Below are positions 4,050-15,388 of a stretch of DNA of 45,871 bases, piece after piece; positions within the stretch are counted from its first letter, which is position 1; every line of letters begins with the position of its first letter. The DNA is from Candidatus Gastranaerophilales bacterium (GTDB lineage: Bacteria; Cyanobacteriota; Vampirovibrionia; Gastranaerophilales; Gastranaerophilaceae). The DNA lies in contig CALUVL010000017.1 of NCBI GenBank assembly GCA_944324225.1, positions 1 to 45,871 on the forward strand, given 5' to 3'. The translations under genes and the position numbers were made by a program. The notes under the pieces were generated by a model that did not search any database, was not told the DNA's origin, and saw nothing but the letters and a program-made list of their open reading frames with translations.

Positions 4050-4421
4050 ATGAAAAACATTCTTATTGTTGATGATGAACAGGATATCGTAGAAAGTTTG
4101 AAATTTGTACTGGAAACAGCAGGTTACAACTGTTATACAGCTTTTGACGGCGAGGAAGGCTTAAGACTTGCTAAAAAAATAATGCCTGATTTAATAATAC
4201 TCGATGTTATGATGCCAAAAATTAACGGATATAAAATCAGCAGGCTTTTGAAATATGACAGCAAATATAAAAACATTCCTATCCTGATGATTACGGCTCG
4301 TTCTCAGGAAGAAGATAAGCTTATCGGAGAAGAAACAGGCGCCGACGAGTATATTACAAAACCCTTTGACCTTGATGATGTCTTAAAACAAGTCGAAAAA
4401 TATTTAGGTAAAGAAAATTAA
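4050..4421 (+). CDS. Single-domain response regulator (CheY/PilG type)
   Basis: A 123-residue stand-alone receiver domain with no output domain. The acidic pair is Asp8-Asp9, the phospho-acceptor is Asp52 (LILDVMMP), the switch Thr is Thr82 (MITAR) and the conserved Lys is Lys104 (TKPF). It should act by binding a partner after phosphorylation. GAGGA precedes the ATG. Its stop overlaps the start of the PilB-like gene by one base (TAATG), so the two are probably translationally coupled. That suggests it controls a pilus or secretion-like machine, as PilG/PilH do elsewhere. The histidine kinase at 1388 is a candidate phosphodonor. Confidence 0.92.
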   Translation: MKNILIVDDEQDIVESLKFVLETAGYNCYTAFDGEEGLRLAKKIMPDLIILDVMMPKINGYKISRLLKYDSKYKNIPILMITARSQEEDKLIGEETGADEYITKPFDLDDVLKQVEKYLGKEN

Positions 4422-5809
4422 TGGAAACCGTAACTAACAAAACACTTGAAAAATTAAAATATGACCTTGTAAGAGCAGGACTTATACAATATGAAACTCT
4501 TGAGCAAGCGCAGGAAATAGCAAATGCACAAAATATAAATATCGGTCAGGCGCTTATTAATTCAGGAATGCTGACGGAAGATGTACTTATCAAATTTCTT
4601 GAAACCAAACTTCACACTCCGTTTGTTAATCTGGAGGATTACAGTCTGGATCCGAAGTGTTTGAAATACATCAACTATACCGATGCAAAAAGATTTAAAA
4701 TTTTACCTTTATTTAAAATTGAAGATACTTTAACTGTTGCAATGGCCGATCCTCTTGATTTGTTTGCAATAGACAGAATAGTAGAATCCGCGGAATGCAC
4801 TATAGAGCCTGTTCTTGCTTCCGAATCAGTTATCCTGAAAAAAATTGATGAATATTACCCGAACGACACAATTGTAGGTGAGATCTATACATCTTCCCAA
4901 TCTGAAGGCTTCGACTGGAGAGATGAACTTCATAGCGAAGACTTGTCAGATTTACATATACAAAAAATCATACGTTCTATTCTTAAACAAGCTATCATTG
5001 AAGAAGTTCACGAAGTTCTTTTTCAAAGACAGGATGACGGATTAGGAGTAAATTTCAAAAAAAACGGAGATATTCTAAACAAAGGAACAATTCCATCTGT
5101 CCTTACACTGTCGTTTACAGCAAAGCTTAAGACTTTAGCTGATCTGGATCCTTCGGTAAGTGAAGTGCCACAGCTTGGGAAATTAAATTTTAAAGTGGAT
5201 GAGATAGCTCTTGTTGCAAGTGTTTCTACATTTCCGACTATTATGGGCGAGAGAATTTTTCTCAAAATTTACAAACCACCTAAAGCTTTAAATAAAATTA
5301 TTACAAATGACACTCAACTTAAAGTGGTAAAAAAAGCGCTTGATATCCCGGGAGTAATACTTGTTTGCGGTTCACCTCTCAGCGGAAAAACCCATGTTAT
5401 TTATTCACTGCTTATGGAATGTGCACAAAAGAACAGCAACAAAAATATTATGACACTAGAAAGTATTGCAAAATACAATCTTCCAAATATTAACCAGTGC
5501 GAATTGAATGAAAATATCGGCTTTAACATGGATAAAGCTTCAAGGTTTATTGAATTTCAGTCCCCTGATATTATCTATCTTGAAGGAATTAAAAACAAAG
5601 AATCTTTTGATTATTTTTCAAGTCTTGTTTACGACGACAAAACTGTTATTATGGAATTTCTTGCAAATAACATGGATGAATTACGTAACAAAATGGCAAT
5701 TTCTGATTTTGAAACGCTCAAATCAATTATCAGCTGCATAATTTTCATTCACTCCAAAAATAGCGTTGAAGTCTTTGATAAAACAACAGCACAAAAATAT
5801 CTGGCATAA
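4421..5809 (+). CDS. Degenerate PilB/GspE-family ATPase
   Basis: A 462-residue protein. Residues about 10-150 match the MshEN/GspE N-terminal domain (LIQYETLEQA, then IGQALINSGMLTE). Residues about 175-450 align with the hexameric secretion ATPase core. The Walker A-like loop is GSPLSGKT (317-324). The Asp box is eroded: TLESIAKY where TLEDPVEY is usual. The Walker B region reads DIIYLEGI (383-390) instead of DIILVGEI. The usual His-box segment (LSTLHTND) is replaced by MEFLANNMDE, and the four-Cys zinc site is absent. It may bind nucleotide but is unlikely to be a normal assembly motor. A regulatory pseudo-ATPase partnered with the response regulator is one possibility (inference). Confidence 0.85.
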   Translation: METVTNKTLEKLKYDLVRAGLIQYETLEQAQEIANAQNINIGQALINSGMLTEDVLIKFLETKLHTPFVNLEDYSLDPKCLKYINYTDAKRFKILPLFKIEDTLTVAMADPLDLFAIDRIVESAECTIEPVLASESVILKKIDEYYPNDTIVGEIYTSSQSEGFDWRDELHSEDLSDLHIQKIIRSILKQAIIEEVHEVLFQRQDDGLGVNFKKNGDILNKGTIPSVLTLSFTAKLKTLADLDPSVSEVPQLGKLNFKVDEIALVASVSTFPTIMGERIFLKIYKPPKALNKIITNDTQLKVVKKALDIPGVILVCGSPLSGKTHVIYSLLMECAQKNSNKNIMTLESIAKYNLPNINQCELNENIGFNMDKASRFIEFQSPDIIYLEGIKNKESFDYFSSLVYDDKTVIMEFLANNMDELRNKMAISDFETLKSIISCIIFIHSKNSVEVFDKTTAQKYLA

Positions 5810-5835: not shown

Positions 5836-6540
5836 CTAAAATCTTAGTGGATAATCTTTTGGAATTTTCCAGCCGTTATGTTGTATCAAAGCAGCACAGT
5901 ATGCTCTTTCATTGCTTACAATCTGCTGGCAACCTAATGAAGGATTATTTTTCAACATTTCAACTGTTCCGTCCCATCCATGCATATATGGCTCAACACC
6001 TTTTTTATAATGATATTTCGTTTCTTTAGCATAAGGAGCAAATAGAAACGTAAAATATTTTACTCCAGAAAGTTCCATGTTATTTTTTATTGCTCCACTT
6101 TCAGCATCAGTCTGATAATTCTCAAAAGTACCGGCATCCGGCCAAAATTGAAAACTTGCACCTCCTATTAACACCAGAGAACCATCAGGCATATAAACCA
6201 TTACCTTCCCAGTTTTGTCATTTATTTGAATATGAGAATATTTTATATATTTCTTCAAATAAATATCAAACCACTCAGAAGGCATAAGCTTGCCTTCTGA
6301 AGCTTCTTCAGAATCATAAGCATTACCCATAACATCCCAGTATTCTTTTGGTCCATGCTCCACTTCTGACATTGTTATGGCTGTATTTATAACAGAATAA
6401 AATCTGGCAAGTCTGGTTTCTGTAACAGTCTTTCTATAGTGTGACGTCAAATGCGGAATTGTCAATGCGGCAACCAATCCGATTATACCTATAGTTATCA
6501 AAACCTCTGCCATAGTAAAACCTTTATTTATTTTATTCAT
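5836..6540 (-). CDS. Type IV pilin-like (prepilin) protein
   Basis: A 234-residue prepilin-like protein. The leader MNKINKG is short and basic. Cleavage is expected after Gly7, leaving FTMAEVLITIGIIGLVAAL with the conserved Glu5 of the mature helix. The Tyr-Arg-Lys after the helix and a variable globular domain follow. The C-terminus ends NGWKIPKDYPLRF and resembles the tail of the pilin at 22714. AAGGAG lies 6 bases before the ATG. It is divergent from an XRE regulator gene with a perfect palindrome between them. The likely processing enzyme is the PilD homologue at 35940. Whether it is a pilus subunit, minor pilin or pseudopilin cannot be told from sequence. Confidence 0.9.
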   Translation of the reverse strand: MNKINKGFTMAEVLITIGIIGLVAALTIPHLTSHYRKTVTETRLARFYSVINTAITMSEVEHGPKEYWDVMGNAYDSEEASEGKLMPSEWFDIYLKKYIKYSHIQINDKTGKVMVYMPDGSLVLIGGASFQFWPDAGTFENYQTDAESGAIKNNMELSGVKYFTFLFAPYAKETKYHYKKGVEPYMHGWDGTVEMLKNNPSLGCQQIVSNERAYCAALIQHNGWKIPKDYPLRF

Positions 6541-6561
6541 AAATAACTCCTTAATTCATTC

Positions 6562-6577
6562 GGACATAATTATGTCC
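6562..6577. promoter_or_regulatory. Perfect 16-bp palindrome between divergent pilin and XRE genes
   Basis: GGACATAATTATGTCC equals its own reverse complement. It lies in the 68-base gap between the pilin start (6540) and the XRE start (6609). A TATAAT at 6585-6590 could serve the XRE gene, and the palindrome covers the position of its -35 element (GGACA). This fits an operator for autorepression and control of the pilin. The binding protein is inferred. Confidence 0.65.
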
Positions 6578-6608
6578 ACACATATATAATAACCTATATC
6601 ATGAGAAT

Positions 6609-6899
6609 ATGCAAGTTTCTCAAAAAACAAAAAATAGAGAATTTCTTCAAGCCTTAGCTAAAGTTTTGAACAAATTACGCAGTGAAAGCAAACGCTCAGC
6701 CAGATCCATTGCTTATGAAATTAATATGTCAAAAACTACATTGCTTCTAGCTGAAACGGGTAAACTTGACCCACAAATCACTACGTTTTGCAAAATTGCA
6801 GAAGCTTTTTATCTTAAACCGGAAAATCTTTTACAAATGGTCTACAAAGAACTGCCACCAAATTGGTCAATCATTGAAGATAGCATTGATTCTCCCTAA
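6609..6899 (+). CDS. XRE-family helix-turn-helix regulator
   Basis: A 96-residue protein with one Cro/CI-type HTH at about residues 13-66 (RSIAYEINMSKTTLLLAETG, then ITTFCKIAEAFYLKPENLL). No Shine-Dalgarno precedes the ATG. The TATAAT at 6585-6590 would put the transcript start only about 12 bases upstream, so the message may be nearly leaderless. It is divergent from the pilin at 5836-6540 across the palindrome at 6562-6577 and is the obvious candidate regulator. Its 3' end overlaps the convergent MlaE-like gene by 4 bases. Confidence 0.88.
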   Translation: MQVSQKTKNREFLQALAKVLNKLRSESKRSARSIAYEINMSKTTLLLAETGKLDPQITTFCKIAEAFYLKPENLLQMVYKELPPNWSIIEDSIDSP

Positions 6900-14775: not shown

Positions 14776-15081
14776 CTACTTCAATTTGCTGAAATATTTA
14801 TTATCCGTCAAAGCTTTGTATGTTGTACATCCAGCGCCGTTCATAGGATCAGTAGAGGCAGGCGAACAGTATTTATCAGTTTCACTGTAATAAGTTGTAC
14901 CTTCAGCTCCCATCGGCAGAAGTTTTCCTTTATCATCTATCTGAAACATAAACAAATCTTGCCACAATCTGTTTGGATTTTTGAGATACCCATTCACATC
15001 TACAGAAATAAACGTTCTAGGGCTAGTTGCATGTGCATAGTTATTTATCAAAACTTCTGCCATTGTAAAACCTTTTTGCAT
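14776..15081 (-). CDS. Prepilin-like gene lacking its membrane helix (internal deletion)
   Basis: A 101-residue protein. It starts MQKGFTMAEVLI, an exact prepilin processing site, but the expected TIGIIGIVAAL helix is absent: residue 13 onward reads NNYAHATSPRTF. The remaining part keeps a pilin-like globular end with two Cys (DKYC, GAGC) and a YKALTDNKYF tail. The simplest reading is an in-frame deletion of the helix and the central domain from a full pilin gene. The product could not anchor in the membrane as a pilin does. GAGGA precedes the ATG. The 5' region with its palindrome is intact, as is the divergent XRE gene. It may be a remnant or a repurposed small protein. Confidence 0.75.
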   Translation of the reverse strand: MQKGFTMAEVLINNYAHATSPRTFISVDVNGYLKNPNRLWQDLFMFQIDDKGKLLPMGAEGTTYYSETDKYCSPASTDPMNGAGCTTYKALTDNKYFSKLK

Positions 15082-15097: not shown

Positions 15098-15121
15098 TAT
15101 ATTCAATTATAATTGAATATA
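15098..15121. promoter_or_regulatory. 24-bp perfect palindrome between pilin remnant and XRE gene
   Basis: The core ATTCAATTATAATTGAAT (15101-15118) is self-complementary, and three more pairs extend it to 24 bp. TATAAT hexamers occur on both strands inside it (plus 15108-15113, minus 15111-15106), so a bound regulator would block both divergent promoters. The likely binder is the XRE protein at 15170. Confidence 0.7.
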
Positions 15122-15169: not shown

Positions 15170-15388
15170 ATGGATAAAAAAGAAATTTTAAAACAAGTCG
15201 GCAAAAATATTCAAAATGCCAGAAAACAAAAAGGTTATACACAGGAAACCTTCTCCGAACTTATGAATGTATCTTGGAGTTACGTTGCAAAGATAGAAGC
15301 AGGGATTTTAAACCTTTCTATCGGGAAAATTGTCGAATTTGCAGAGTATCTTGATGTTGATATTAACGAACTTTTAAAAATCAAATAA
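15170..15388 (+). CDS. XRE-family helix-turn-helix regulator (small)
   Basis: A 72-residue protein that is almost only a Cro/CI-type HTH: KNIQNARKQKGYTQETFSEL, then VSWSYVAKIEAG, then a final helix ending LLKIK. The ATG at 15170 (MDKKEIL) is preferred; the frame opens further upstream at a TTG, but that lies inside the palindrome. No clear Shine-Dalgarno is present. It is divergent from the gutted pilin gene across the 24-bp palindrome at 15098-15121, the same arrangement as at 5836-6899. It is not closely similar to the XRE protein at 6609. Its stop is directly adjacent to the 3' end of murG. Confidence 0.88.
   Translation: MDKKEILKQVGKNIQNARKQKGYTQETFSELMNVSWSYVAKIEAGILNLSIGKIVEFAEYLDVDINELLKIK

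Follow-up and report, generated by a model that had tools for sequence, protein, structure and literature searches.

The window, by which we mean the whole stretch of 45,871 nucleotides analysed, comes from a 1.93-Mb assembly of a Candidatus Gastranaerophilales bacterium that is 99% complete (G000). It includes a prepilin gene and a gene for a small XRE-type regulator that are transcribed away from each other, and the neighbours of the regulator gene are those for prepilin, T2SSE ATPase and MlaE. The features of the locus are as follows.

4421-5809: T2SSE ATPase gene, adjoining the prepilin gene (Pfam)
5836-6540, minus strand: prepilin gene, 234 aa, with FTMAEVL signal and DUF6613 body (open reading frame and Pfam)
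6541-6608, no strand: divergent promoter spacer, 68 bp (open reading frame bounds)
6547-6552, minus strand: AAGGAG, Shine-Dalgarno sequence of the pilin gene (sequence)
6561-6566, plus strand: CGGACA, -35-like hexamer of the XRE promoter, at the palindrome edge (sigma-70-like scoring)
6562-6577, no strand: candidate operator, the perfect palindrome GGACATAATTATGTCC (conservation in orthologous spacers, once per genome)
6585-6590, plus strand: TATAAT, -10 hexamer of the XRE promoter (scoring and spacer alignment)
6609-6899, plus strand: XRE-type small regulator gene, 96 aa, starting ATGCAA (open reading frame, Pfam and model)

An earlier note on this DNA had described a divergent prepilin/XRE pair 68 bases apart, with a self-complementary 16-mer at the -35 position of the XRE promoter. 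Both observations hold: the spacer is exactly positions 6541-6608, and the palindrome covers the -35 position because the CGGACA at its edge (TGGACA in most orthologues, according to the spacer alignment) scores as a -35-like hexamer. The sigma-70-like site that was scored consists of this hexamer, an 18-bp spacer and TATAAT, which begins 7 nt past the palindrome and ends 18 nt ahead of the XRE start codon. There is no Shine-Dalgarno sequence before that start codon, so that the leader of the XRE mRNA would be only about 10 nt long. A convincing -35 for the pilin promoter was looked for in the spacer and not found. Perfect palindromes of at least 16 bp appeared in 0.26% of shuffles of the 68-bp spacer, and in 0.005% if at least six G/C were demanded; the whole window contains four (1.3 expected), two of them in divergent pilin/XRE spacers.

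The prepilin has a class III signal (F-T-x-A-E) and a hydrophobic N-terminal helix, as in type IV prepilins (GFTMAEVLITIGIIGLVAALTIP), an N_methyl match (PF07963) above the Pfam cut-off and a match to DUF6613 (PF20318), and it also carries the sequence GFTMAEVLITIGIIGLVAAL. The XRE protein matches HTH_3 and HTH_31 weakly, under the Pfam gathering cut-off, and its AlphaFold model (pLDDT 88.5) has five helices in an XRE fold. The recognition helix spans about residues 42-49 (KTTLLLAE), where the model has helix 3, beside S41-K42-T43-T44, four recognition-helix residues that are invariant among orthologues. According to Foldseek, the nearest solved folds are those of the restriction-modification (R-M) controller proteins C.Esp1396I, C.BclI and C.AhdI (best E 2e-3; TM-score, by query length, of 0.6-0.7 against C.Esp1396I and other XRE proteins), and a sequence profile search had C.BclI, CylR2 and the ICEBs1 regulator among its matches. 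The 96-aa protein is probably a dimeric XRE-type autoregulator, and GGACATAATTATGTCC very probably its private operator.

Of 288 genomes of the family, 14 have the exact 16-mer, each in one copy (a reversed control pattern was found in one genome), and relatives with the same operator include named Candidatus Gastranaerophilales and Melainabacteria assemblies, among them Candidatus Scatousia. Downstream of it, in 12 of the 14 genomes, is an intact XRE gene of the same subfamily, and 11 of these 12 loci have an FT[L/M]AEVL pilin gene across from the XRE. The other two show decay: G295 has an XRE shortened to 67 aa but retains pilin and palindrome, and in G153 the exact 16-mer is accompanied by no more than a C-terminal part of the XRE, the pilin being lost. 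When protein retrieval that was blind to the palindrome was combined with retrieval by the 16-mer, 15 intact XRE orthologues were obtained, of which 12 have the exact 16-mer, two (G024, G235) have it with one mismatch, and one (G099), which retains both XRE and pilin, has a damaged half-site. A divergent pilin gene lies beside 12 of the 15, and the three without one keep the palindrome, intact or with one mismatch. The earlier note would have given up its reading if the palindrome were unconserved in orthologous spacers or the gene pair absent elsewhere; neither is the case. The spacer alignment that it had called for, run on 14 loci, placed operator, -10 and ATGCAA in fixed register, with a single conserved palindrome. 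The distance from palindrome to XRE is constant, and that from palindrome to pilin start (with starts picked by their Shine-Dalgarno sequences) varies from 17 to 36 nt. In six genomes, sites with up to three mismatches to the 16-mer were only as frequent as those for the reversed control pattern; we therefore rejected the idea of a 16-mer regulon, and the operator appears to be private to its locus. At a few loci (L040, L039, L050) the symmetry continues beyond the 16-mer with differing flank letters, and it is perfect over up to 40 bp in G103; several orthologues have no symmetry past 16-18 bp.

How general is the arrangement? The analysis drew on stretches around matches and on samples from other genomes. 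Our complete survey of pairs concerns one genome, that of the window, in which 45 FT[M/L]AEVL-type prepilin sites and 48 HTH_3 matches (E ≤ 0.1) were found. An HTH_3 gene lies divergently within 360 bp of 23 of the 45 pilin genes (about 0.4 expected by chance), and none of the 45 has one in convergent or tandem orientation within 700 bp, so the excess is about 60-fold and strictly one-sided. Among the 38 HTH_3 genes above the Pfam cut-off, 22 are pilin partners. Three further pilin genes were seen by eye to be divergent from genes for other small DNA-binding-type proteins (L065 and L097, in C3 and C11, and L076, in C4), these being two related short HTH proteins and one AbrB/MazE-like protein. 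In 400 kb sampled from another genus of the family, 8 of 16 pilins were paired; sample stretches from two other families of the order gave none of four and none of one, and no pilins were seen in a sample of one other lineage of the class. On these small samples, with pairs in two genera and none in the other families, the pattern seems tied to the family.

The paired pilins do not seem to be one Pfam family (DUF6613 matches occur among both paired and unpaired pilins, and there are pilins with no match at all), nor do the pairs seem simply to have been amplified as fixed units, since a Mantel test finds no correlation between the similarity of the XREs and that of the pilin bodies (r=0.02, p=0.41, 21 pairs); there are pilins 72-84% identical whose XREs are only 31-39% identical. 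As for the unpaired XRE genes of the same genome (L171-L186), most are divergent from single genes, including those for glycosyltransferases (L172, L174), an acyltransferase (L182) and secreted proteins (L173, L177), which suggests, as a lead only, that local XRE switches may govern cell-surface traits more widely.

The MlaE-T2SSE junction was sought in 14 genomes of the genus, 13 of which could be assigned (all but G004). The whole pair is present in two of the 14 (G000, G011); in eight MlaE and T2SSE are direct neighbours and both genes of the pair are absent; G006 and G009 have a truncated XRE and have lost the pilin; and in G013 (L217) there is an unrelated pilin gene without an XRE, from which it seems that pilin genes may have landed at this junction repeatedly. 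At this locus, then, the pair is mostly there or lacking as a unit. Among loci whose XREs share 70-82% identity, the full-length pilins share 40-66% outside the signal region, and in more distant genomes with the same operator the pilins are only 26-28% identical and differ in length. Pilin bodies thus change faster than the XRE, and they have been swapped behind conserved XRE/operator units. At one such unit (L046, in G188) the pilin gene has a frameshift and adjoins a repeat of about 121 bp in three tandem copies (361-758, 1324-1566).

The window contains a second pair.

14776-15081, minus strand: prepilin remnant with internal deletion
15098-15121, no strand: palindrome TATATTCAATTATAATTGAATATA, 24 bp, kept in five genomes of the genus
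15170-15388, plus strand: divergent XRE gene (HTH_3), start codon inferred

The core of its palindrome has no more than one mismatch in the five genomes (one mismatch in two). The relatives keep full-length pilins, whose bodies fall into two unrelated types about 30% identical; behind the conserved XRE and palindrome, the pilin body has been exchanged between these types. The second pair thus repeats the first in having a conserved operator.

XRE genes that start with ATGCA(A/G) form subfamilies, each with its own palindrome; the recognition helices and palindromes are these.

SKTTLLLAE: GGACATAATTATGTCC
QKSLLSRLE: TTCTATATATAGAA
S(I/T)SIIST.E: TTCG(C/T)GAA
SKS(I/V)W: TGTTCT...AGAACA
REHINRM: TGTGATTAATTAATCACA

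Besides TTCTATATATAGAA, TATTCAATTATAATTGAATA is another candidate operator. The best palindrome has its centre 37-44 bp upstream of the XRE start codon in 25 of 36 representatives, compared with 8.8% in shuffles, the representatives being mutually related, so that any p-value is a guide only. Such palindromes are found whether or not a pilin gene adjoins the XRE, which indicates that they belong to the XRE, and different recognition helices go with different palindromes. A perfect palindrome common to every pair was not found: by a simple score, only 7 of the 26 pairs in the window's genome have a clear, significant palindrome in their own spacer, and many of its other pair spacers have imperfect repeats or none visible.

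What might such a pair do? The predicted operator would span the -35/spacer region of the near-leaderless XRE promoter, with its centre at about -27, a classical position for a repressor, and binding of the XRE there should repress the XRE gene itself and so keep its expression at a low set point. At 17-36 nt from where the coding region of the pilin starts, this bound dimer would also cover the pilin core promoter or the first transcribed bases, so that the pilin should be shut too, by occlusion or roadblock, unless the pilin promoter is an unusual one. A drop in XRE activity, through noise or some signal, would then turn the pilin on. The position of the operator centre, taken with its closeness to the pilin start, favours an autoregulated dual repressor, and we consider it probable that the XRE is an autoregulated repressor with a private operator, acting in the manner of R-M controllers, which would also shut its pilin; control of the pilin we infer from the geometry. 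The suggestion in the earlier note of a local switch for one pilin gene is well supported for this pair in that the palindrome is conserved, genome-unique and tied to the XRE start. It does not stand as a single oddity, since the genome has about two dozen XRE/pilin pairs, and the palindrome is anchored to the XRE promoter, not to the pilin: it is kept in the three pilin-less intact orthologues and has a fixed distance only to the XRE, so the pilin is not required for operator retention.

This anchoring would also be expected if the palindrome served XRE autoregulation only, the pilin gene being a neighbour that the XRE does not control or that is controlled otherwise. Such a reading accommodates the fixed XRE distance and variable pilin distance, the retention of palindromes without a pilin neighbour in the SKTTLLLAE and related subfamilies, and the divergence of unpaired XREs from other genes. 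It has more difficulty with the 60-fold, strictly one-sided excess of divergent pairs, with the MlaE-T2SSE junctions where XRE decay and pilin loss go together (two genomes) or both genes are absent (eight), and with a palindrome so near the pilin start that bound protein would overlap promoter or leader. We think it rather unlikely. It is improbable, too, that the XRE activates the pilin gene, or activates it at low level and represses it at high level, as R-M controllers do with endonuclease genes: the nearest folds are indeed controller proteins, and the want of a convincing pilin -35 would fit a promoter in need of help, but class I or II activators bind further upstream than 17-36 nt from the start codon, and there is a single palindrome, not a tandem pair of boxes. 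Symmetry reaching 30-40 bp with differing flanks in some genomes (L040, L050) is hairpin-like, and might point to an RNA hairpin in the pilin leader, or to a site for another DNA-binding protein, in place of a site for the divergent XRE. We regard this as very improbable, given that the 16-mer is unique per genome, is found with the SKTTLLLAE subfamily and accompanies the XRE even at loci that lack the pilin, that sister XRE subfamilies have other palindromes at the same place, and that in several orthologues symmetry ends at 16-18 bp. Finally, an accidental pair and palindrome, thrown up by many pilins and XREs in an AT-rich genome, might be argued from the three other perfect palindromes of at least 16 bp in the window, but can be dismissed in view of the conservation of the 16-mer across genera and the genome-wide excess of divergent pairs.

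If the XRE is indeed a dual repressor, the visible differences among the operators of related XRE subfamilies imply that the switches should be mutually insulated, and a cell could vary which subset of its pilins it expresses, stochastically or in combinations. We put forward only tentatively, as a possibility that we would not yet bet on, that Gastranaerophilales possess a large repertoire of insulated XRE/operator/pilin switches, combinatorially assembled, through which each cell chooses the pilins it displays; surface variation would then come about via parallel private repressors and not by DNA inversion, slippage or gene conversion. In these gut relatives of cyanobacteria pilin genes number in the dozens, and in the open-licence PMC papers searched the choice among them is undescribed, with nothing relevant on XRE-controlled pilins or on pilin control in the group. 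Half of the pilins in one genome have a divergent XRE to themselves, which suggests that surface fibres are governed by independent on/off switches across the whole genome, and with a likely operator readable from sequence for one subfamily, pilin choice becomes testable gene by gene. A natural set of XREs with differing recognition helices and matching operators should also help in decoding how XRE proteins read DNA and in building insulated genetic switches.

Among known systems, the C proteins of R-M systems (C.Esp1396I, C.BclI, C.AhdI; also the Kpn2I system, PMC6237814) share the fold and, like the 96-aa XRE, are small single-domain proteins; their genes have a very short leader or none. 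Their sites lie in the promoter of their own gene, beside a partner gene, as proposed for the XRE. The partner here, however, is a pilin and not a methyltransferase or endonuclease, and the neighbours (prepilin, T2SSE ATPase, MlaE) do not make up an R-M locus; the aligned spacers have one palindrome upstream of the XRE and not two tandem C-boxes; the XRE has a long N-terminal helix and a conserved LPENW tail; and there are many paralogous systems within one genome. Repressors of the CylR2 type and of the phage/ICE type (such as the ICEBs1 regulator) are likewise small XRE proteins, and repress promoters via inverted repeats; in contrast to these, no phage, ICE or cytolysin genes adjoin the XRE/pilin pair, and the putative target is one member of a large pilin repertoire. 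Type IV pilin transcription is controlled by two-component systems such as PilS/PilR, a role like that proposed here, but in those cases one global regulator governs one major pilin, whereas here every pilin of a pair comes with a local XRE that has a spacer or operator of its own.
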